From: Thermoplasmata archaeon
GTDB taxonomy: Archaea; Thermoplasmatota; Thermoplasmata; Lutacidiplasmatales; UBA184
Length of the DNA stretch: 33,930 nucleotides
NCBI GenBank assembly: GCA_021812305.1
Contig: JAKAOB010000007.1
Location: 1 to 33,930, forward strand
Reading direction: 5' to 3'
The translations under genes and the position numbers were made by a program. The notes beneath the pieces were generated by a model that worked only from the letters and a program-made list of their open reading frames with translations, did no database searches and was not told the origin of the DNA. Positions 19,373 through 33,930 of the stretch are shown one piece after another (position 1 is the first letter of the stretch; the number at the start of each line of letters is the position of its first letter).

Positions 19373-22300
19373 ATGTGGACCGAGGCCCAGTTGCCGAGAG
19401 CACCGCGACGCCGCCCTGTCCTGCGAGGGAGGCCGACGGTCGTCGTCCTGGCCATCGTGTCGATGACCCTGTTGGCCTCGTTCGCCGCCATCGGGTCATC
19501 GTCGGGCGGCGCGTCGACCGGTCGCGCCCCGGGCCCGGTCGCCTCCCTCGCCACCGGGACCGCCCAGGCTCCGGTCGTTGCGCCCTACGGGACGGCCGGT
19601 CCGGCCCGAAGCGCCCCGTTCGACGGGGCCGGTCGCTCCTCCTCGGTGCCGTTCGTGCCGAAGCTGGGGCACTTCACGCTGCCCGGTCCTCGCCTCTCGG
19701 GTTGGGGCGCGTCGGGCGTTCCGCCCGGCGCCGAGGCCCTGGGGACGGCGCTCGCCGGGTCGGGGAGCGCGCCGACGGCTTCGGCGGCGAGCACCCCGGC
19801 CTGGGACAACCGCTTCTGCGCCGGCCTCTGGCCGTGGGCGGCGAACGACTCCGCATCGCAGTCGTACTACGCGAACGGCTGTTACGGCCACGACGAGCCC
19901 GGCATCGAGTTCTACTCCGGCCTCAACGGGAGCGGCGGCAACGTCACGTGGAACGTCACGCTGCCCGTCGACCGCTCCGCGACGCAGAACCAGTCCGACC
20001 TCTACGTCGCGATCTGGTTCGGGATGACCCTCAACGACCCCATGGCCTGGATGCACCAGTGCTTCCTGGAGCTCCAGTTCTACCCCGACCAGTCGTGGAC
20101 GAACCCGGGACCGACCAACCCGAGCGCCACGGCGAACGGGGTTTGGGTCGGCGCGGCGGTCGCCTGGCAGATCGAGGCGTCGACGGGCTACGAGGACCCG
20201 TGCTTCTACCAGCCGCTCTACCTCGGTAACGCGACGTCCGGCCCGGGCTACTTCAACATGACCCAGGGCGATCACCTCACGGTGACGATGACCGGGTGGG
20301 CCAACGATCCTGCGGGGGAATCGATCGTCGTCAACGATCTCACCCAGGGGACGAACTCGTCCCTCGTGATGTACAACTCCGTCGACCACTATCCCGTCGA
20401 CCCGAGCTACGCGACGAACAGCTACGAGAACGCGCTCCAGTGGACGCCGGGCGGTGAGTACCCGGTCGTCTTCGCCTTCGAGAACGGCCACGCCGGCAAT
20501 CCGTCGTACCCGTCCAACAACTCCTACGGGGGCTGCAGCCCCGGTAAGCCCCCCGCCTCGCCGACCTACCCGTCCGTCCCCTGCCCGAGCTACGATCCGT
20601 CGAGCTGGGCGAACGACACCCTGCACCCGTGGCGGATCGGGACCCCGACCTTCTTCAACGCGGCCGCGCGGTCGACCCCGGCCCAGGTCGCCTTCACCCA
20701 AGACTTCGGCGGCGCCGCGGCGATCGCGTCGATCGGCGGCGGCGCCTGCTCCGGCCAGCTGGGGAGCGCGTGGTGCTCGTACCCCTGGTACTCCTACTCG
20801 TGCGCGGCCCAGGCCTTCGAGTTCGGCGCGACCGACTACCCGGGCGTCTCCGCGGACTTCGGGCAATACAACGAGTACTCCCAGGTCCTCGAGACGAACG
20901 GGCTCGGTTTCGGCTTCTTCCCCCCCACCAACTTCTCGATCCCCGCGTGCGGCCGAGCGGCCTACAATGTGACCGTCGCCCCCACGGGCTCGCCGGGGGG
21001 CGCGGTCTACTTCCTGTCGAGCGCCGTCACCTCCTCGACGGCGTTCGGCCCGCTGCTTCCGGGAGAGTACTCGATCCGGCCGTACGCCCCCGCCGGCGCC
21101 GGGTTCACCGGATGGACCACCACGGGCGGGGTCTCGATCCTCGGCTCGGCGGCCGATCCCTGGGCGACCCTGGTCGTCACCGGCCCCGGCGCGGTCCGCG
21201 CGGTCTTCGGGTCCGCTCCCACGACCGCCGTCACGTTCGAGGACACCGGCACGACGCTTCCCGGGTCGATCGTCCTGAGCGCCGCCCGGCTCTACACCGA
21301 CGGCGCCCCGCTCGCGACGATGGCGAACGGTTCCGCGTACGCGCTCTCCCCCGGCATCTACGGAGTCCAGGCGCTCGCGCCGCCGGGGTCGAACTTCAGC
21401 GGCTGGTCCGTCGCGGGCACCGGGGTCTCGATCGCGCCCGACTACTTCCCCTACGCGTGGCTGGACGTCAGCGCCGCGGGCGGGAACGCGACGCTCACGG
21501 CGACGTACGCCCCCTCGTCCAGCACGGACACGGCCTATGTCTACGTCAGCGGCAACGGGACCGCGACCCTCAACGGCACCTCCACCTCGAGCTTCCTTGC
21601 CCTCACCCTATCGGTGGGGGCCTACGCGTTCACCTCCGCGCCCGCCCCGGGATGGGCCTACGCCGGACTGTACTACGGTTCGAGCGCCGTCATCACCGAC
21701 TTCAATCCGGTGACGAACGTCTCGCTCGAGAACGGGTCGTCCTACCTCTACGTCTACTTCACCCCGCTGCCGGTCCGCATCACCCTGGACGACGCCCCCG
21801 CCATCGGTGGGACGATCTCGGCCGACTACGGCACGACCTTCCTCCCGAACGGGGCGACGGTCACCGGCGTCCCGGGCGACAGCTTCTTCGCGGCGGCCGC
21901 GAACGCCGGCTACGCGTTCACTTCGTGGTCGGTCAACAGCTCCCTCGCGGCGGACGTGCTCGCGCCCACGGCCTCGGTGACCGTCGTTCTCGTCAACGCC
22001 TCGGTCACCCTGACCGCCCACTTCGCGGCCGCGACCTACCGGTCGACCGTCGCGTTCGCGGCCGTGCCGGCGGCCGGCGGGAGCATCGAGTTCAACGGCG
22101 TGCCGTACACGAACGGCACCTCGAACACCTCGGTCGCCAACGGGACCTACCTGCTGACCCCGGTTCCGGCCCCGGGCTACTCCGTGGTCGGGCCGATCGT
22201 GGTCAACGGGAGCGCGGTCCTCACCAGCACCTACCTCGGTACGGGGCTGACCGTCAACGGGTCGGCCGCGGTGACGGTCGACTTCGCGCGGGCCCCCGTG

Positions 22301-24046
22301 CCGGTCTACCCGGTCACGTTCGTCGCGAACGTTCCCTACGGGGTCACGGCCGCCCTCGGCAACGTCTCGCTCACGTCCGGGTCCACGGCGTGGGTGTCGA
22401 CGGGCTCGTACGCCCTGAACGTGACGGTGCTCGGCAACGAGACCTTCGAGGGATGGTCCCCGGGGCCGGGGCTCCACATCGGGAGCGTTCCGTCGATCGG
22501 GACGACGCTGAACGTCAGCGGTCCGGGGTCGTTCACCGCCCTCGTCGCCCCGTTCGGGGTGGCGACCGCCCGCGTGAGCCCGAACCCCGCCGACGTCGGG
22601 GTGCCCGTGACGTTCGTCGCGAACGTGAGCGGGGCGGGGCCGTACACCTTCGCCTGGAGCCTTCCCGCCGGTTGCGCCGGCGCCAACGCGAGCACCGTCG
22701 CCTGCGCGGTGGCGGCGGGGGGATCGTACCCCGTCTCGGTCAACGTGACGGACGGCTTCGGCGCGTTCGGCCGCTCGCCGGTCACGACGCTCGTCGTGCA
22801 CGGGCCGGTGGGGGCCGGGCTCTCCTTCTCTCCGGGGACCATCGACCTCGGGATGACCGCCAACGTGACCGTCGTCGTCACCGGCGGCACCGGACCGTTC
22901 TCGTACGCGTGGGGCGCGGTGCCGGCCGGCTGCACCGGGACCGGCGCGTCGCTCCGGTGCACTCCGACGATCTCCGGGACCCTCGTCGCCACGGTCAACG
23001 TCTCCGATGCGTTCGGGCGGTCCTCCCTCGCTACGGCCTTCCTGATCGTGAACCCGCGCCCCTCGGTCTCGGCGTTCCTCGCGAGCCCGCCCGTGACGGA
23101 TGTCGGCGTCACCTCGACCCTCACGGTGAGCGTGACCGGCGGGACCGGTCCCTTTGTCTACGCCTACTCGGGCCTGCCGGCGGGTTGCGCGGGGGCGACG
23201 ACCGCCACGTTCGCGTGCACGCCCGCCGCCGCCGGCTCCTTCGTCGTCCGGGTCAACGTGACCGATACCTACGGCTACGTCGCGACGGAGACCGCCCCCC
23301 TGACGGTGGACCCCGCCCCGGCGCTCGGCCCGCTTACGGCGACCCGTACCCTGCTCGATGTCGGGATGACGACCTCGCTCTCGTCCGCGCCGAGCGGCGG
23401 GACGACCCCGTACGCCTACTCCTGGTCGGCGCTGCCCCCCGGCTGCGTCGGGGTGAACGCCTCGTCCCTCGCGTGCACCCCCGTCGCCCCCGCCACGGTG
23501 ACGGTGATCGTCACGATGACGGACGCCCGCGGCGCCTCGGCGCAGGCCTCGGTCGCGCTCACGGTCGATCCGCGTCCGTCGATCAGCCTCTTCGCCGTCT
23601 CCGCCGCGTCGGTCGCGGTCGGCGGGAGCGTCACCTTCTCGCTCACCGCGACCGGAGGCACCGGCGGGCTGGCCGTCCGCTACTCCGCCCTCCCGCCGGG
23701 CTGCACCGGCGTGAACGTGACATCGATCACCTGCGCGCCGAGCGCCGCCGGCGCGTACTCGGTGGGGGTGCGGGTGACGGACGCCCTCGGGCAGTCGGCC
23801 AACGCGACGGTGGCCCTCACCGTGACGTCCTCCGCGCCCGGGTTCCTCTCGACGACGCAAGGCGACCTCACCATCGGTCTTCTGGTCCTCGCTGCGGTCG
23901 TACTGCTCGGCGTCGCGCTACTGCTGCGGCGCCGCCGGGGCCGGGGGAGCTCGGGCCCGCCCGCCGCGTGGAACGCCGGGGCGGACGCGGGCGGGAACGG
24001 GGCCGGACCGGCCGGCCGCGGGCCGCCGCCGGAGGGGCCGGCGTAG
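19373..24046 (+). CDS. giant cell-surface protein with InlB-like and Cys-pair PKD-like repeats
   Basis: About 1557 residues. A basic start (RAPRRRPVLRGRP) and hydrophobic stretch (about 20-43) form the export signal. A low-complexity linker leads to an unrecognised Cys/Trp/Tyr-rich domain (about 143-530, beginning DNRFCAGLWPWA). About 531-1061 holds six units resembling divergent InlB B-repeats (GFTGWTTTGGV, NFSGWSVAGTGV, AFTSWSVNSS). About 1062-1488 holds five PKD-like repeats, each with a P-x-GCxG and a later Cys. A membrane helix (about 1500-1520), RRRRGRG and a Gly/Pro tail follow. It is probably a glycosylated envelope or adhesive protein anchored like its upstream neighbour. GTG 19355, 25 nt after a TATTT box, is an alternative start. 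Confidence 0.83.
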   Translation: MWTEAQLPRAPRRRPVLRGRPTVVVLAIVSMTLLASFAAIGSSSGGASTGRAPGPVASLATGTAQAPVVAPYGTAGPARSAPFDGAGRSSSVPFVPKLGHFTLPGPRLSGWGASGVPPGAEALGTALAGSGSAPTASAASTPAWDNRFCAGLWPWAANDSASQSYYANGCYGHDEPGIEFYSGLNGSGGNVTWNVTLPVDRSATQNQSDLYVAIWFGMTLNDPMAWMHQCFLELQFYPDQSWTNPGPTNPSATANGVWVGAAVAWQIEASTGYEDPCFYQPLYLGNATSGPGYFNMTQGDHLTVTMTGWANDPAGESIVVNDLTQGTNSSLVMYNSVDHYPVDPSYATNSYENALQWTPGGEYPVVFAFENGHAGNPSYPSNNSYGGCSPGKPPASPTYPSVPCPSYDPSSWANDTLHPWRIGTPTFFNAAARSTPAQVAFTQDFGGAAAIASIGGGACSGQLGSAWCSYPWYSYSCAAQAFEFGATDYPGVSADFGQYNEYSQVLETNGLGFGFFPPTNFSIPACGRAAYNVTVAPTGSPGGAVYFLSSAVTSSTAFGPLLPGEYSIRPYAPAGAGFTGWTTTGGVSILGSAADPWATLVVTGPGAVRAVFGSAPTTAVTFEDTGTTLPGSIVLSAARLYTDGAPLATMANGSAYALSPGIYGVQALAPPGSNFSGWSVAGTGVSIAPDYFPYAWLDVSAAGGNATLTATYAPSSSTDTAYVYVSGNGTATLNGTSTSSFLALTLSVGAYAFTSAPAPGWAYAGLYYGSSAVITDFNPVTNVSLENGSSYLYVYFTPLPVRITLDDAPAIGGTISADYGTTFLPNGATVTGVPGDSFFAAAANAGYAFTSWSVNSSLAADVLAPTASVTVVLVNASVTLTAHFAAATYRSTVAFAAVPAAGGSIEFNGVPYTNGTSNTSVANGTYLLTPVPAPGYSVVGPIVVNGSAVLTSTYLGTGLTVNGSAAVTVDFARAPVPVYPVTFVANVPYGVTAALGNVSLTSGSTAWVSTGSYALNVTVLGNETFEGWSPGPGLHIGSVPSIGTTLNVSGPGSFTALVAPFGVATARVSPNPADVGVPVTFVANVSGAGPYTFAWSLPAGCAGANASTVACAVAAGGSYPVSVNVTDGFGAFGRSPVTTLVVHGPVGAGLSFSPGTIDLGMTANVTVVVTGGTGPFSYAWGAVPAGCTGTGASLRCTPTISGTLVATVNVSDAFGRSSLATAFLIVNPRPSVSAFLASPPVTDVGVTSTLTVSVTGGTGPFVYAYSGLPAGCAGATTATFACTPAAAGSFVVRVNVTDTYGYVATETAPLTVDPAPALGPLTATRTLLDVGMTTSLSSAPSGGTTPYAYSWSALPPGCVGVNASSLACTPVAPATVTVIVTMTDARGASAQASVALTVDPRPSISLFAVSAASVAVGGSVTFSLTATGGTGGLAVRYSALPPGCTGVNVTSITCAPSAAGAYSVGVRVTDALGQSANATVALTVTSSAPGFLSTTQGDLTIGLLVLAAVVLLGVALLLRRRRGRGSSGPPAAWNAGADAGGNGAGPAGRGPPPEGPA
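22558..23835 (+). repeat. array of five Cys-pair PKD-like coding repeats
   Basis: Five units of about 250-258 nt each encode a beta-sandwich repeat with P(A/P)GC(A/T/V)G, a Cys about 8-10 residues later and VTD near the end. The two Cys in each unit could form a disulfide. Unit ends share VDP(A/R)P or NPRP linkers. Confidence 0.7.
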
Positions 24047-24131: not shown

Positions 24132-25112
24132 ATGCAGGGAGGATCGGCCACGGCCGGTGGCTCCCCGGTCGGCCGCGGGCGCGCGTTCCTGCCGGCGCTG
24201 GTCGCGGCGGCGCTCTGGGGACTGTCGGGGACGGCGAGCCAGGCGCTGTTCCAGCGCTACGACTTCCCGGCGCCGGCGCTCGTCAGCCTGCGGATGCTCG
24301 TCTCCGGGGCGATCCTCCTCGTGGTCCTGCGGCCCCGCCTACCCCGGGTCGCCCCGGCGCGCTTCGTGGCCTTCGCGGTCCTCGGCCTCTACGGCGTCCA
24401 GCTGACGTTCTTCCTCGCGATCGCGTACTCGAACGCCGCGACGACCACGCTGCTGCAGAGCCTGTCGCTGCCGTTGATGGCCGGGTACGAGATCGTCGCC
24501 GAGGGACGGCGACCGGACCGTCGATGGGGGGTCGCCGTCGTGCTCGCGGTCCTCGGGACGACGCTGCTCATCCTCGGGCGGACGGGGGGGCTCGGCCTCG
24601 CCGTCAGTCCGACCGGCCTGGTGCTCGGCCTCCTGTCGGCCGGGACGGCGGCGTACTACATCCTCGCGGCGCGCCCGATCCTTCGGACCAACGGCTCGTG
24701 GCCGACCGTCACCTGGGGATTCCTCGTCGGGGGAGCGGCCAGTCTCCCGTACGGCATCCTTTCGTTCGCCGGTTACCCCGGCCCCGGCAGCGCCGTGGGG
24801 ATCGTGGCGGGGCTGAGCGCGTTCGTCATCGTCTTCGGCACCCTCCTCGCCTTCGGCCTCTTCCTCACCACCCTCGGCCCGCTCTCGGCGACCGAGGCCG
24901 GGGTCGCCGGCACGATGGAGCCGATCGCGGCCGCCCTGGCGGCCTTCGTCTTCCTCGGCGTGCTCCTCGCTCCCCTGCAGTACCTGGGCGGCGCGCTCGT
25001 CCTGACCGGAGTCTTCCTGCTCGCGTCGGCCACGCCGCGCCGGGCCCGGTCGGGCTCCGGGGGGAGGGGAAGCGCCGGCCCGGCGGTCCCGGCGGGCGGG
25101 GACGACCCATGA
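24132..25112 (+). CDS. EamA/DMT-superfamily transporter
   Basis: A 326-residue membrane protein with ten hydrophobic segments arranged as two EamA repeats. Repeat 1 runs from FLPALVAAALWGLSGTASQAL to VLAVLGTTLLIL and includes the AIAYSNAATTTLLQSLSLPLMAGYE segment. Repeat 2 starts at GLVLGLLSAGTAAYYILAAR and ends GALVLTGVFLLAS, including LGPLSATEAGVAGTMEPIAAALAAFVFLGV, the usual second-repeat signature. Such proteins export or exchange small metabolites (amino acids, nucleobases, sugars); the substrate is unknown. A GTTATC patch lies about 60 nt upstream. Its stop overlaps the start of the next gene as ATGA, so the two are probably translationally coupled. Confidence 0.93.
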   Translation: MQGGSATAGGSPVGRGRAFLPALVAAALWGLSGTASQALFQRYDFPAPALVSLRMLVSGAILLVVLRPRLPRVAPARFVAFAVLGLYGVQLTFFLAIAYSNAATTTLLQSLSLPLMAGYEIVAEGRRPDRRWGVAVVLAVLGTTLLILGRTGGLGLAVSPTGLVLGLLSAGTAAYYILAARPILRTNGSWPTVTWGFLVGGAASLPYGILSFAGYPGPGSAVGIVAGLSAFVIVFGTLLAFGLFLTTLGPLSATEAGVAGTMEPIAAALAAFVFLGVLLAPLQYLGGALVLTGVFLLASATPRRARSGSGGRGSAGPAVPAGGDDP

Positions 25113-25891
25113 CCGACGCGCCGGCGCCCGCGGCGGCGCCCGCCGCGGTGCCCGCCGCGGCCCCGCCACCGGTCGTCGCCTTCGCGCTCGAAGAGTGCCG
25201 CCTCAGCGTGTTCGCCCTCTTCGAGTCGACCCTGCGGGTCGCAGGGCTCGCCTGGCGGCTCACGACCCCGCGCGGAGCGGGGCCGGTCGTCGCCCGCCCG
25301 CGCCAGCGCGCCCGCTCCCGGCTCCACGCGGAGCTCCTGGCGCTGCGGTACGCCGGCCCGGCCCTCGGGGAGGCCGGGTGCCGGGGCGTCGTGGTCCGCA
25401 CCGAGGACCCCCGCCTCGTCCGGGCGGTCGAGGGCCGCTCCGGTCGCCCCGATGCGCGCGGGCGGGTCGAGGCGCGGCCGCTCCGGCGGCTCCTCGAACG
25501 GACGGGCGGCTACCGCCTCGAGGTGGTCCGGCCGATCGCGGACCCCGAGCTCGTCCGGGCCGCCGGGGGCGCGCTCGACGAGGCGATCCATGTCGCGACG
25601 GAGCGACGCGAGCGGAGGGCCGTCGCCCTCGAGGAGGTCGTTGCCCGGGCCGGGACGGTCCACCTGCGCTGGCGCGACGCCGGCTGGATCGCGAACGGAC
25701 GCTACCCCGTCCGGCTCGATCCCCCGTCCTGCGAGTGCCCGGCCTGGGCGCGGCGGTGGGCCGGGGTCAGCCTCGCCGGGCGCCGCGCCGCCCGTTTGCC
25801 CTGCAAGCATCTGGTCGCCCTCGCGCTCCGGGAAGGCCGGGCGGACCTCGACGAGCTCGCCGCGCTCGGCCGCCGTGCCGCTCCCGAGTGA
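25109..25891 (+). CDS. SWIM zinc-finger protein with predicted RNase H-like domain
   Basis: A 260-residue protein. The C-terminus has a SWIM zinc finger: Cys208-x-Cys210 in PSCECPAW and Cys232-x-His234 in PCKHLVALAL. The N-terminal 20 residues are Ala/Pro-rich. Residues about 22-165 follow the order of an RNase HI fold: strands (VFALFES, LAWRLTTP), then SRLHAELLALRYA (Glu75), GVVVRTEDPRLVRAVEGR (Asp100), a basic helix (PLRRLLERTGGY), strand LEVVRPIADP and helix GALDEAIHVA (Asp157). The first catalytic Asp is not evident, so activity is uncertain. The ATG at 25109 overlaps the transporter stop (ATGA). The SWIM call is firm. The RNase H-like call is my inference by pattern. Confidence 0.78.
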   Translation: MTDAPAPAAAPAAVPAAAPPPVVAFALEECRLSVFALFESTLRVAGLAWRLTTPRGAGPVVARPRQRARSRLHAELLALRYAGPALGEAGCRGVVVRTEDPRLVRAVEGRSGRPDARGRVEARPLRRLLERTGGYRLEVVRPIADPELVRAAGGALDEAIHVATERRERRAVALEEVVARAGTVHLRWRDAGWIANGRYPVRLDPPSCECPAWARRWAGVSLAGRRAARLPCKHLVALALREGRADLDELAALGRRAAPE

Positions 25892-28711: not shown

Positions 28712-29095
28712 TCACGGCGGTCGAAGACCGACCACCGCGACGGCCGGGACCTCGTCGAGGCTGTGGCGGCGGGACCACCGCGCCAGCACGGGGAAGATCG
28801 CCTCGAGCTCGAGCGTCTTCGCCGTCGGTCCGTACTCGACCCGGGGGGGCGTCTCCCGGTAGGAGCGTCGCTCCAGGAAGCCGTGGTCGACCAGGACGCG
28901 GAGGCGCTGGCTGAGGGTCTTCGGCGAAAGGAGGAGCGACCGCTCGAGCTCGGTGAACCGGTGGGGGCGTCCGTCCCCGAACAGGTGAAGGATGCCCAAC
29001 ATGTGCGGCCGACCGAGGATCGCGAACAGCTCGGTGACCTGGCAGCCGCCGGCCCGGCGCTCCCCGGGGGCCCGCCTGGGTGCCGACCTCGGCAT
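28712..29095 (-). CDS. HxlR-family winged-helix transcriptional regulator
   Basis: A 127-residue DNA-binding protein matching HxlR/MarR-like regulators. It shows CQVTELFAILGRPHMLGILHLFGDGRPHRFTELERSL (the HxlR helix-1 and Cys region), LLSPKTLSQRLRVLVDHGFLERRSY (the recognition helix and wing) and VEYGPTAKTLELEAIFPVLARWSRRH. Some HxlR proteins sense quinones, hypochlorite or aldehydes through the N-terminal Cys (here Cys18). It is divergent from the LUD-domain gene across 145 nt of AT-rich, palindrome-rich DNA, so it probably controls that gene and itself. ATG 29095 lies about 28 nt from a CTATAAC box. Family call is firm and the effector is unknown. Confidence 0.9.
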   Translation of the reverse strand: MPRSAPRRAPGERRAGGCQVTELFAILGRPHMLGILHLFGDGRPHRFTELERSLLLSPKTLSQRLRVLVDHGFLERRSYRETPPRVEYGPTAKTLELEAIFPVLARWSRRHSLDEVPAVAVVGLRPP

Positions 29096-29102
29096 GCTAA
29101 AG

Positions 29103-29119
29103 ACTATGCGAAGGATAGT
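29103..29119. promoter_or_regulatory. inverted repeat near the HxlR start, candidate operator
   Basis: ACTAT (29103-29107) and ATAGT (29115-29119) form an inverted repeat with a 7-nt centre between the hxlR-type gene's TATA box and its ATG. The position would let the regulator block its own promoter. Inferred from symmetry and place only. Confidence 0.4.
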
Positions 29120-29127
29120 GTTATAGC
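29119..29127 (-). promoter_or_regulatory. TATA box of the HxlR-type gene
   Basis: On the minus strand GCTATAACA is centred about 28 nt before the ATG at 29095, the leaderless spacing. It overlaps one copy of a TATAGC repeat (29122-29127) and an imperfect palindrome TAGC-TTAC-GCTA (29124-29135). Confidence 0.55.
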
Positions 29128-29210
29128 TTACGCTAGACCCGGTCCGTTTTGACCGAGTCAGGTGACGGGTGGGGTCGGCGACGCGTGGTTACCTAATTGC
29201 CATTGTATAG

Positions 29211-29231
29211 CATAAATACTTTCGAAAATAT
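29211..29231 (+). promoter_or_regulatory. LUD-gene promoter with TTTCGAAA palindrome
   Basis: CATAAATAC (29211-29219) is centred about 27 nt before the ATG at 29241. Immediately downstream is the perfect palindrome TTTCGAAA (29220-29227), extended to ATA-C-TTTCGAAA-A-TAT (29216-29231). Copies of TATAGC flank it at 29206-29211 and 29229-29234. This is likely a TATA box with an overlapping regulator site. Confidence 0.55.
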
Positions 29232-29240
29232 AGCTCACTC

Positions 29241-29918
29241 ATGACCGCAGCCGCGTCCGCCCCAGCCCCGAAGGCGTCTTCCCCCAGCCCGTCCACGCCC
29301 GAGCCGAACCCGGAGTTCAGCCGCCCGGCGACCGCCGCCCGCATCGAGGCGACGGTGAAGGCGCTCGAGGGACGAGGCATCCACGCCGTCGTGGTGGCGG
29401 ATCGGGACGCGGCCCGCCGCGCGGTGCTCGATCTTCTCCCGCAGGGAGCCGGGGTCCTCGACGCGACCTCGCAGACGATGCAGGCGACCGGGATCGCCGA
29501 GGCGATCCGCGTGCCGGGAAAGTACCGGGACATCCGCGCCGAGCTCACCGAGCTCGCGCGCGAGAAGAAGACCCTGGAGCAGCGCCGGACCGGGTCCGCC
29601 CCGGAGTACATCGTGGGGAGCGTCCATGCCGTCACCGAGCAGGGCCAGGTCGTCATCGCCTCCGCGACGGGGAGCCAGCTCGGGCCGTACGCCTTCGGAG
29701 CGATGCATGTGATCTGGGTCGTGGGCGCCCAGAAGATCGTCGCGAACCTGGACGAGGCGTTCCGGCGCGTCCGCGAGTACACCTACCCCCTCGAGGATCG
29801 CCGCGCGCTCGTCGCCTACGGCATGGGAAGCACCATCGCGAAGACGCTCGTGATCGAGCGTGAGGTCCAGCCCGGACGCATCACCATGGTGATCGTCCGC
29901 GAGAACCTCGGGTTCTAG
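29241..29918 (+). CDS. LUD-domain protein (LutC/YkgG-like)
   Basis: A 225-residue LUD (DUF162) domain protein. After a Pro/Ser-rich start come IHAVVVADRDAARRAVLDLLPQGAGVLDATSQTM and the core SVHAVTEQGQVVIASATGSQLGPYAFGAMHVIWVVGAQKIVANLDEAFRR, ending in GRITMVIVRENLGF, the usual C-terminal strand. LUD proteins include LutC of L-lactate utilisation, but stand-alone members often have no known role. No lutA/lutB (Fe-S) genes are adjacent, so lactate oxidation is not supported here. Its stop shares CTAG (29915-29918) with msrA. A strong AT-rich promoter and a divergent HxlR gene suggest inducible control. Confidence 0.9.
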   Translation: MTAAASAPAPKASSPSPSTPEPNPEFSRPATAARIEATVKALEGRGIHAVVVADRDAARRAVLDLLPQGAGVLDATSQTMQATGIAEAIRVPGKYRDIRAELTELAREKKTLEQRRTGSAPEYIVGSVHAVTEQGQVVIASATGSQLGPYAFGAMHVIWVVGAQKIVANLDEAFRRVREYTYPLEDRRALVAYGMGSTIAKTLVIEREVQPGRITMVIVRENLGF

Positions 29919-30508
29919 CGGAACGTCGGAGGGTCGCCGGCCGACGCCGGCGACCGGAGACGATCGGCGTACCGGGCCCGGAACTTCGCGAGCTTCGGGG
30001 CGATCACGGCCCGACAGTAGGCCTGCTCGGGGTTGCGGCGGAAGTAGGCGCGGTGGTACTCCTCCGCCGGGTAGAATTCGGTGAGCGCGGCGATCTCCGT
30101 GACGACCGGATGGCGCGGGCCGAGCTCGCGCGCGACCTCGGCCCGGACCGCTTCGGCGTCGGCGCGTTGGGCGTCGCCTCGGTAGAGGATGACCGAACGG
30201 TACTGTGGCCCCACGTCGTGGCCCTGCCGGTCGCGGGTCGTCGGGTCGTGCGTGGCGAAGAAGATCCCGAGGAGCTCCCGGTAGGGGAGAGCCCGGGCGT
30301 CGAACCGCACCCGGACGACCTCGGCGTGTCCGGTCGTCCCGGTGCAGACCTGCTCGTACGTCGGGCGCGGAACGTGGCCCCCGGCGTAGCCGGGCTCCAC
30401 CCCGACGACCCCGGCGAGACCGTCGAAGACGGCCTCCGTGCACCAGAAGCAGCCGCCGCCCAGGACCGCCGACTCCTCCGTCCGGGGGGCGGCCGTCGGT
30501 TCGCTCAC
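29915..30508 (-). CDS. msrA: peptide methionine sulfoxide reductase A
   Basis: A 197-residue MsrA. It reduces methionine-S-sulfoxide in proteins, repairing oxidative damage. The catalytic motif is GGGCFWCTEAVF (Cys20, Cys23), followed by EPGYAGGHVPRPTYEQVCTGTTGHAEVVRV (the conserved GYxGG and TGHAE elements), FATHDPTTRDRQGHDVGPQYRSVI and EYHRAYFRRNPEQAYC, which carries a later Cys that may act in recycling. GTG 30508 is chosen over TTG 30547 because it overlaps the stop of the upstream cupredoxin gene as GTGA, typical of translational coupling, and starts near the family N-terminus. It is convergent with the LUD gene (shared CTAG). Confidence 0.95.
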   Translation of the reverse strand: MSEPTAAPRTEESAVLGGGCFWCTEAVFDGLAGVVGVEPGYAGGHVPRPTYEQVCTGTTGHAEVVRVRFDARALPYRELLGIFFATHDPTTRDRQGHDVGPQYRSVILYRGDAQRADAEAVRAEVARELGPRHPVVTEIAALTEFYPAEEYHRAYFRRNPEQAYCRAVIAPKLAKFRARYADRLRSPASAGDPPTFR

Positions 30509-31140
30509 GGGTTCGGGGGCGCGGACCGCGAGGGCCGGCGCCGCCAAAGGAGGAGCAGGGCGGCCACGACCACTATCGCCGCCAGGGCGACGGCGGCGTA
30601 GAGGTAGACCGGCGTCGACATGGCCGAGGGCGAGGTCGCGCCGGTGCTCGAGGTGAGGGTACCGAACATCCCGGACTGGAAGTGGCCGGGGATCTCGCAG
30701 AGGAATTCGTACGCTCCGGCCGGGGGGGCGGTAAAGTTGGCGTAGAAGGTCCGGCCCGGGAGGTCCCCGAGGCTGAGGTTCACGAGGGGTGGGTGCGCGG
30801 CGAAGAAGGCGAAGATCTGCGCGGGGGTCGACGTGCCGGCGAACGTGTAGCCGGCGACGGACGAGAGCGTGAACGTGTGGTTGAAGTTCGCTTCCTGGGT
30901 CACCTCGAGCTCGACGGGAGCGCCCGCGATGACGCTGAGATCGGAGGGGACGAAGGTGAAGCTCCCCGTCGCGCTCACCCGGACGACGCTAGCCCCGCCC
31001 ACCTCGGGCGCGCGGGGGGACTCCAGGGCGCTCGCACTGCCGGCAAGCACCAGCGCCATCGTCCCGAGGACCACCGCGAGCGCGCGGGGGGGTGCCGAGC
31101 CCCTCGCGCTCCTCGCCCATCCGACCGACGATCGACCCAT
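30505..31140 (-). CDS. membrane-anchored cupredoxin (blue copper protein)
   Basis: A 211-residue secreted copper protein. A signal peptide covers about 1-39 (ALAVVLGTMALVLAGSASA). The cupredoxin domain (about 50-163) provides the type 1 copper ligands His88 (NFNHTF), Cys148, His153 and Met158 (FLCEIPGHFQSGMFG). A Ser/Thr linker leads to a C-terminal membrane helix (about 177-199) and RRRP. It would pass electrons at the outer membrane face, as do halocyanin- and sulfocyanin-like proteins; partners are unknown. ATG 31140 has a TATTAGTA box about 26 nt upstream. The GTGA overlap with msrA makes an operon that pairs copper electron transfer with oxidative repair. Confidence 0.9.
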   Translation of the reverse strand: MGRSSVGWARSARGSAPPRALAVVLGTMALVLAGSASALESPRAPEVGGASVVRVSATGSFTFVPSDLSVIAGAPVELEVTQEANFNHTFTLSSVAGYTFAGTSTPAQIFAFFAAHPPLVNLSLGDLPGRTFYANFTAPPAGAYEFLCEIPGHFQSGMFGTLTSSTGATSPSAMSTPVYLYAAVALAAIVVVAALLLLWRRRPSRSAPPNP

Positions 31141-31962: not shown

Positions 31963-32535
31963 ATGCTGGGAGATCTGACGCGAGCGCAGATCGAGAAGGT
32001 GCTCTTCTCCGAAGTGATCGCCCGCCTCGGGTGCGTCGACGGCGATCGGGCCTACGTCGTGCCCGTCACGTACGCGTACGACGGTCGCTTCGTCTACGGT
32101 CATTCGGCCGAAGGAGAGAAGATCCGGCTGATGCGGCGGAACCCCTCGGTCTGCTTCGAGGTCGAGCGGGTCGAGGACCTCGCCAACTGGCAGTCGGTGA
32201 TCGCCTGGGGCTCCTTCGAGGAGCTCCACGGCGAGACGGCGACCGAGGCGAGCCGGTTCCTCGCGGCGCGACTGCACCCGTTCACGGGGTCGCGGTCGGC
32301 TCCGCTCGAGGTCCCGCTCCCCCAGTGCGCGGGACCGCCCCCCGGGAGGCCGAGCGGACGCCCGATCGTCGTCTACCGCCTTCGGCTCACCGAGAAGACG
32401 GGGCGCTACGAGCGGGCGGTGGACGCCCCGCTCGCCCCGGCCGTCGAACCGCCGGCGCTCCACGTACCGGAAGCCCTGGCGGCCGCTTCCGTCAGCACCG
32501 GACCGCACGGCATCCGATTGGGCCCGCCCGGATAG
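31963..32535 (+). CDS. PNPOx/NimA-like FMN-binding split-barrel protein
   Basis: A 190-residue protein of the pyridoxamine 5'-phosphate oxidase-like split-barrel family. Strand order is clear: LGCVDGDRAYVVPVTYAYDGRFVYGHSAEGEKIRLMRRNPSVCFEVERV (about 22-70), then WQSVIAWGSFEEL (about 74-86) and IVVYRLRLTEKTGRYER near 130-146. NimA-type members bind FMN and reduce small substrates or act as heme- or F420-related proteins. The ligand here is not evident. The last 45 residues are Pro/Ala-rich. ATG 31963 has GGGGAGGGG about 4 nt upstream. Its 3' end overlaps the tail of the convergent hydrolase frame by 130 nt. Confidence 0.87.
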   Translation: MLGDLTRAQIEKVLFSEVIARLGCVDGDRAYVVPVTYAYDGRFVYGHSAEGEKIRLMRRNPSVCFEVERVEDLANWQSVIAWGSFEELHGETATEASRFLAARLHPFTGSRSAPLEVPLPQCAGPPPGRPSGRPIVVYRLRLTEKTGRYERAVDAPLAPAVEPPALHVPEALAAASVSTGPHGIRLGPPG

Positions 32536-33332
32536 GACGGGTCGATTCGGACGCGGCCCCGTCCCGGCGACGCCCGTCCGGCGACCTCGCGACCGGGCCG
32601 ATCCGGGCGTGCGGGAGCCGTCGAGCCCGGGGGACGCGGAGGGGTGGGGGACGGGCCGAGGTGGGCCCGGAACCACTCGGCCGTCTCTCGCGATACGGCC
32701 TCGAGCGCCCCCGGCTCTTCGAAGAGGTGCCCGGCTCCCGGCACGACCACGAGGCGTTTGGGCGCGCGGAGGAGGGAGTACGTCGCCTCGTTCAGGGCGC
32801 GGACCTCGGGGTCCTCGCTCCCGACGAGGAAGAGCGTCGGGCAGCGCACCTCGGAAACGACCGCATCGGCGAGGTCGCTGCGTGCACCCCGCAGCACGAT
32901 CGCCCGGACCGCCTCCGGGTGCGCCACCGCCGCGCGCAGGGCGACGGCCCCCCCGGTGCTCGCCCCGTAGAAGCCGAGCGGGCGCGCGGCCGTCTCGGGT
33001 CGCCCGAGGAGCCACTCGGTCGCGCGGATCAGACGGCCCGTGAGCAGGGGAATGTCGAACCGGTACGCGGCGTTCGCCTCGTCGGCCCGGGCCTCGGCCG
33101 GGTCGAGCAGGTCGAGGAGGAGCGTCCCGAACCCGAGGCGCTTCAGGCCGCGGGCGACCTCCCGGTTCCTCGGGCTGCGGCGCCCGCTGCCGCTGCCGTG
33201 GGCGAAGAGGATGAGCCCGTTGTTCCCGCGGGCCGGGACTAGATCCGCATCCAGGTGCCGGGCATCGAACGGGATCTCGACCGCCCGGCTCGCGGCCGCC
33301 GGGACGGGGTCTCGGCGCCTACGTTGCTCCAC
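32406..33332 (-). CDS. alpha/beta hydrolase (dienelactone-hydrolase-like)
   Basis: About 308 residues. GLILFAHGSGSGR (about 39-51) is the oxyanion region, YGASTGG carries Ser125, GSEDPEV carries Asp174 and GAGHLFEEPG carries His202, completing an alpha/beta hydrolase triad. GTG 33332 overlaps the stop of the upstream phosphoribosyltransferase by 14 nt. In many bacteria the same two domains are fused in one chain, so a shared task is likely though not known. The enzyme domain ends near residue 226 (AEWFRAHLG). The frame then continues as about 80 Pro/Arg/Gly-rich residues that overlap the convergent flavoprotein gene, so the true stop may be earlier (sequencing error) or the tail may be real. 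Confidence 0.82.
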   Translation of the reverse strand: MEQRRRRDPVPAAASRAVEIPFDARHLDADLVPARGNNGLILFAHGSGSGRRSPRNREVARGLKRLGFGTLLLDLLDPAEARADEANAAYRFDIPLLTGRLIRATEWLLGRPETAARPLGFYGASTGGAVALRAAVAHPEAVRAIVLRGARSDLADAVVSEVRCPTLFLVGSEDPEVRALNEATYSLLRAPKRLVVVPGAGHLFEEPGALEAVSRETAEWFRAHLGPSPTPPRPPGSTAPARPDRPGREVAGRASPGRGRVRIDPSYPGGPNRMPCGPVLTEAAARASGTWSAGGSTAGASGASTARS

Positions 33333-33930
33333 CGCTCCCCCCGGCGGACCCGGCCCGCAGCATCTCGAGAACCTCGGCGTCCTCGACCTGGGGGAAGGAA
33401 CGGTACCACTCGCCCACCGCGTAGAAGACCTCGGGCGTGAGGACGACGACGAGCTCGTCGACCTCCGCGGCCAGCGCACGGGCCGTCGACGCCGGACTGA
33501 CGCCGAGGGCGAGCACGAGGCGGGACGCCCCGCGAAGGCGCAGGGAGCGGAGGGCGGCGCGGACGGTCCCGCCGGTGGCGATCCCGTCGTCGACGACGAT
33601 CACCGTCCGTCCCCGGGGGTCGATCGCCGGGCGGCCGGCGCGGAACAGCCGCGAGCGCCGCTCGATCTCGGCGAGCTCGCGCTCGATCACGGGGGCCAGC
33701 GATGATTCGCTCTCGCCGAGCTCGCCCGCCCGGTCCCGATCGATCAGTCGAACTCCGCCCTCGGCGACGGCGCCGAGGCCGTACTCCGGGTCCGACGGCG
33801 CGCCCACCTTCCGTACGAGGATGACATCGAGCCCGAGCCCCAGACGGCGGGCGATCTCGGCGGCGACCGGCACCCCGCCCCGGGGGATCGCGAACACGAC
33901 CGCATCCGTGCCGCGGTAGGCGAGATCGGA
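33319..33930 (-). CDS. phosphoribosyltransferase (type I), N-terminus outside window
   Basis: About 203 residues are present; the frame is open to the window edge (SDLAYRGTDAVVFAIPRGG), so the start is missing. The PRPP-binding loop VIVVDDGIATGGTVRAAL has the two acidic residues and GxTG-type turn of type I phosphoribosyltransferases. VFAIPRGGVPVAAEIARRLG and DVILVRKVGAPSDPEYGLGAVAEGG match the family that is often fused to a dienelactone-hydrolase domain, as in mycobacterial proteins of this kind. The nucleobase or other acceptor is unknown. Overlap with the hydrolase gene implies coupled translation. Confidence 0.9.
   Translation of the reverse strand, partial: SDLAYRGTDAVVFAIPRGGVPVAAEIARRLGLGLDVILVRKVGAPSDPEYGLGAVAEGGVRLIDRDRAGELGESESSLAPVIERELAEIERRSRLFRAGRPAIDPRGRTVIVVDDGIATGGTVRAALRSLRLRGASRLVLALGVSPASTARALAAEVDELVVVLTPEVFYAVGEWYRSFPQVEDAEVLEMLRAGSAGGSGGAT

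Follow-up and report, generated by a model that had tools for sequence, protein, structure and literature searches.

The window analysed here is the whole stretch of 33,930 nucleotides from a Thermoplasmata archaeon, and window coordinates of genes and residues are given on its forward (+) strand. A coding sequence with an ATG start (25109..25891) encodes a protein of 260 aa, in which an RNase HI-like domain (residues 28-160, 25190..25588) is followed by a SWIM zinc finger module (residues 184-257, 25658..25879). Upstream lies the gene of an EamA-family transporter identified by Pfam (24132..25112), and comparison of sequence and neighbourhood located an ATGA overlap between its stop codon and the start of the RNase HI-SWIM gene (25109..25112).

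Codon-usage gene calling preferred the 25109-25891 frame despite an overlapping antisense ORF of 637 aa. Homologs of the encoded protein were present in 13 other genomes of the same genus (Thermoplasmata), which gave a family of 14 members with a patchy distribution (14/78 genomes of the genus); nearly all of the related records were Thermoplasmata archaeon MAGs. The frames were open in the sampled genomes carrying the gene, and dN/dS relative to the closest species was approximately 0.26 for the RNase H part and 0.15 for the SWIM part. The protein is under purifying selection, which is strongest on the SWIM module, its best-conserved part (mean identity 68% versus 42%). Because of the homologs in 13 genomes and the dN/dS values of about 0.15-0.26, the ORF is on sequence grounds a real gene rather than a chance ORF.

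Genomic neighbourhood of the gene

The pairing with the EamA gene, described earlier as an odd partnership that may reflect cotranscription, is genuine in the window but recurs in just one other genome among the carriers (G066). Functional coupling with the transporter was rejected, the pairing being confined to these two genomes and the gene having different neighbours elsewhere; the EamA transporter is a local neighbour and not a conserved partner. A surface protein of 1557 aa with PKD/InlB repeats is encoded upstream of the transporter gene (19373-24046), and its place is conserved in G066. On the other side of the gene a HxlR regulator, a LUD-domain protein, MsrA, and a plastocyanin/sulfocyanin-like protein are clustered (28712-31140) and are possibly redox-related.

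Many members of the genus have the RNase HI-SWIM gene placed after an alpha/beta hydrolase gene, and in several of them a thermosome gene is found farther upstream, with an asnA-like gene on the opposite strand downstream (thermosome and asnA were named by eye from the sequence). Coupling with the hydrolase was rejected as well, since the hydrolase occurs without the gene nearby in three genomes (G041, G073, G031) and lies apart from it in the window. At the edge of the window (32406-33930), an alpha/beta hydrolase of the family found as upstream neighbour in most relatives overlaps a phosphoribosyltransferase-like ORF. No fixed operon partner was found in the neighbourhoods across the carrier genomes.

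Domain architecture and active-site positions

The AlphaFold model of the window protein, built with an alignment of the 14 sequences (mean pLDDT 86), contains strands at residues 29-39, 44-53, and 56-65, a helix at 71-89, a strand at 93-98, helices at 101-107 and 113-130, a strand at 135-139, and a helix at 146-181 that begins inside the domain. This order of elements is that of RNase HI. The best Foldseek match of the model was Halobacterium RNase HI (4e19; E=3e-7, target TM 0.72), followed by Rv2228c and then E. coli RNase HI. The Pfam model RVT_3 (PF13456, RNase HI family) matched 10 of the 14 members (best E 2.7e-8), though in the window protein itself the match was below the cut-off (E=0.17), and a profile including the intact relatives described below retrieved both 3hst and 4e19 with E<1e-4. 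The preliminary description had proposed an RNase H-like fold and named structure prediction, Foldseek comparison and HMM searches as checks on it; the AlphaFold, Foldseek, RVT_3 and 3hst/4e19 profile results bear the proposal out, and the first part of the window protein is, according to the predicted structure and these matches, an RNase HI fold.

The C-terminal module, with two beta hairpins before it, was recognized by the Pfam SWIM model PF04434 (E=1e-4, 22.2 bits versus a curated cut-off of 19.6), which matched 13/14 members. The two halves of the zinc motif, located by sequence and alignment, are C208-x-C210 (25730..25738) and C232-x-H234-x-x-A237 (25802..25819). All four putative zinc ligands are present in every member whose region is complete, so that the earlier assignment of CxC...CxH as a SWIM finger stands. 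Modelled alone, the module had a pLDDT of 84, and comparison of this model with solved structures gave no match. The module has conserved basic residues and the net charge of the protein is positive.

The catalytic register was obtained from a HMMER profile alignment to the solved RNases HI 3hst and 4e19 and from a joint alignment with the intact fusions and canonical paralogues, and the two agreed. At the positions of the catalytic tetrad D10-E48-D70-D134 the window protein has Phe35 (25211..25213), Glu75 (25331..25333), Glu99 (25403..25405), and Val149 (25553..25555). The E48 position is thus retained, as in 13/14 members, and the D10 and D134 positions are substituted. Across the genus, the D10 position is Asp in just three of the 14 members, the D70 position is Asp in the sister genome G066 and mostly Pro elsewhere, and the D134 position is acidic in none. 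The T43-N44-N45 motif of RNase HI contacts the hybrid; it is absent from the family, being SRL in the window protein and TLI or SRV-like in the rest of the genus.

These alignments correct the earlier assignment of three of the four acidic positions to Glu75, Asp100, and Asp157: Glu75 does occupy a catalytic position, and the other two were misassigned. Asp100 is the residue right after the D70 position, and Asp157 (25577..25579), eight residues beyond the D134 position, matches a non-catalytic Asp of RNase HI ('LANEALD'). Conservation of the three residues had been proposed as a further check: Glu75 is kept in 13 members and Asp157 is invariant in the genus (14/14), but Asp100 is replaced in 7/14, so on this residue the preliminary description is contradicted by its own measure. 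Its alternative guess, a nucleic-acid-binding factor or an inactive nuclease fold, gains support from the aligned sequences, and with D10 and D134 substituted inactivity is likelier than its author thought. An active canonical RNase HI was rejected because of the lost catalytic positions, and the RNA-cutting site of the window protein appears lost. Catalysis would be covered by other enzymes, since each of the 14 carrier genomes also has a canonical RVT_3 protein (RNase HI) at another locus and 12 of them encode RNase HII; the two genomes without RNase HII are 57% and 78% complete.

Intact and inactive fusions in other archaea

Three RNase HI-SWIM fusions with a complete DEDD site were identified: L058 in a genome of another Thermoplasmata family (G173), L046 in Geoglobus sp. 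UBA235 (Archaeoglobi), and L104 in G432, another archaeon of that class. They have the two-domain order of the window protein and differ from it in the full tetrad and in their mobile- or defence-like neighbours. The L046 gene (L046:7498-8303) is split into two frames by a frameshift within a run of seven A residues. The sequence there, CTA AAA AAA TAA, places a canonical A_AAA_AAA -1 slippery heptamer immediately ahead of the stop codon of the zero frame; the split may represent either a programmed frameshift or a one-base indel. Inactive fusions were found in two Archaeoglobi (L116:1909-2490 in G597 and L117:187-777 in G662). These share with the window protein the domain order and the kept E48, have lost D10, D70, and D134, and differ in lineage and SWIM subtype. 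Three further candidates (L111 in G495, L110, and L113) proved to be plain RNase HI, and no RNase HI-SWIM fusion was found in viral, phage, and plasmid collections at the sensitivities used.

In a phylogenetic tree built with three catalytic columns removed, the inactive fusions fell in two places and a single clade of them was rejected (AU p=7.7e-7); L058 and L046 have the SWIM subtype of the genus family and branch adjacent to it. A single origin of the SWIM fusion gave AU p=0.21. From these sequences it seems that the active site was lost at least twice in archaeal RNase HI-SWIM fusions, a result that is strong but not final because of the long branches and uneven composition of the tree.

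The genomic context of the relatives was also compared. L058 sits in a defence-like island (L102:1391-13126) between a TmtA-like protein of 1510 aa and an N6-methylase of 944 aa, both of which match PADLOC models; the L046 region encodes a DnaA-like protein of phage type and is rich in short ORFs, and L104 is near TFB, C2H2, and HNH genes. The inactive L116 has aconitase-family (leuC/leuD-like), PhoU, L21e, Rpb4, and RrnaAD genes as neighbours, and L117 adjoins a periplasmic-binding protein in a setting that is less clear. In these few cases (three of them intact), intact fusions are in mobile- or defence-like contexts and inactive ones in housekeeping chromosomal settings. No PADLOC model matched the window protein (P0001), L104, or L058, and identity with a known defence protein was rejected on this basis.

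Putative function and alternative explanations

From the computed domains, predicted fold, catalytic substitutions, intact relatives, two separate losses, and purifying selection we infer inactivity, nucleic-acid binding, and a biological role. The reading that we favour, with a probability of about 0.5, is that of a domesticated, catalytically inactive archaeal RNase HI with a C-terminal SWIM module, kept as a probable nucleic-acid-binding factor. The ancestor would have been an archaeal RNase HI-SWIM fusion with a complete DEDD site, as in the mobile- and defence-like regions of other archaea; within the genus the active site would then have decayed, with selection retaining the fold and, to a greater degree, the SWIM module. 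Given the domain families and the net positive charge, the window protein probably binds nucleic acid. The SWIM module with its basic residues may contact either nucleic acid itself or a partner bound to it, and a second binding or scaffold surface may be offered by the dead RNase H fold. The protein would occupy its site without cutting, in a role that is probably linked to transcription or replication, and would be expressed from whichever operon hosts the gene, the transporter being no partner.

A serious though unlikely rival is that the SWIM module serves as an adaptor between proteins, in the manner of Shu2/SWS1 with a RAD51 paralogue; it would engage a partner in recombination, of the RecA/RadA family or another, and would not itself recognize nucleic acid. 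The SWIM motif given for Shu2/SWS1 is the extended form CxC...CxHxxA (PMC6316741), and the window protein has this form in full (C208, C210, C232, H234, and A237), the alanine being nearly invariant among members. Yet the motif is not unique to Shu2/SWS1, which are described without an RNase H part (PMC6316741), no RecA-family gene was identified adjoining any copy, and the RNase H part of the window protein suggests nucleic acid.

Less likely again is that the RNase H part has kept enzymatic activity through a rearranged set of acidic residues (e.g., E39 and E75 with either E147 or D157) and cuts a different substrate, to which the SWIM module targets it. The predicted fold is well preserved, every one of the 14 members has an acidic residue at E39 and at E147, and E75 and D157 are as conserved as noted above; with D10 kept in three members and conserved acids at E39, E147, and D157, the genus proteins could, judging by the alignment, still hold some metal site. 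Continued catalysis is hard to reconcile with a D134 position that is never acidic, a D70 position that is mostly Pro in the genus, the lost TNN motif, and the canonical enzymes encoded by the same genomes, and the inactive Archaeoglobi forms L116 and L117 have no E39 counterpart. A decaying, selfish or leftover gene without cellular function, passive after transfer from a mobile element, would agree with the patchy distribution, the catalytic loss, the lack of a fixed operon partner, and the mobile- and defence-like contexts of relatives, but it is improbable given open frames, dN/dS values far below 1 for each domain (the selection test disfavours it), unbroken SWIM ligands, and one chromosomal neighbourhood shared by several divergent species.

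The fold, the element order, and the E48 position are common to the window protein and to the RNases HI of Halobacterium (4e19) and Rv2228c (3hst), from which it differs by the substituted D10, D70, and D134, the lost TNN motif, and the added SWIM module. The MULE-transposase domain has an RNase H-like fold. In plant FAR1/FHY3 a domain derived from a MULE transposase lost catalysis and, together with a SWIM module, became a transcription factor (PMC13306707). FAR1/FHY3 are the nearest functional parallel to the window protein, by analogy and not by membership: they are eukaryotic, their FAR1 DNA-binding domain is absent from the window protein, no homology was found over the RNase H part, and Pfam profiles detected neither the MULE transposase nor the FAR1 family in the 14 members, only RVT_3 and SWIM. 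B. subtilis RNase HI is a homolog reported to lack RNase H activity, in a genome having other RNases H; it differs in lineage, and the searched text names no SWIM module for it (PMC1950709).

The earlier statement that no characterised protein has this pairing holds insofar as none was found in the literature, but FAR1/FHY3 qualify it, as they combine SWIM with a domain derived from a MULE transposase (PMC13306707). No published description of an RNase H or RNase HI with SWIM, or of its repeated inactivation, was found in the open-licence literature, and the window protein has no NCBIfam name. Both domains are known; it is their pairing and repeated inactivation for which no description was found in that literature.

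A broader and more doubtful possibility, drawn by analogy, is that archaea repeatedly turn RNase HI-SWIM enzymes of mobile elements into zinc-finger regulators that are dead as enzymes, reside in the chromosome and sit on a class of nucleic acid without cleaving it, a prokaryotic counterpart of FAR1/FHY3. Reports of SWIM proteins from proviruses of archaea and from a rudivirus (PMC11899642, PMC4866403, PMC3569270) fit a mobile origin. If true, there would be a route from a mobile-element RNA-cutting enzyme to a non-cutting archaeal chromosomal zinc-finger protein, taken more than once, and the occurrence of intact and inactive members within one class makes the change directly testable. The genus protein would then represent a new type of nucleic-acid-binding factor in archaea.
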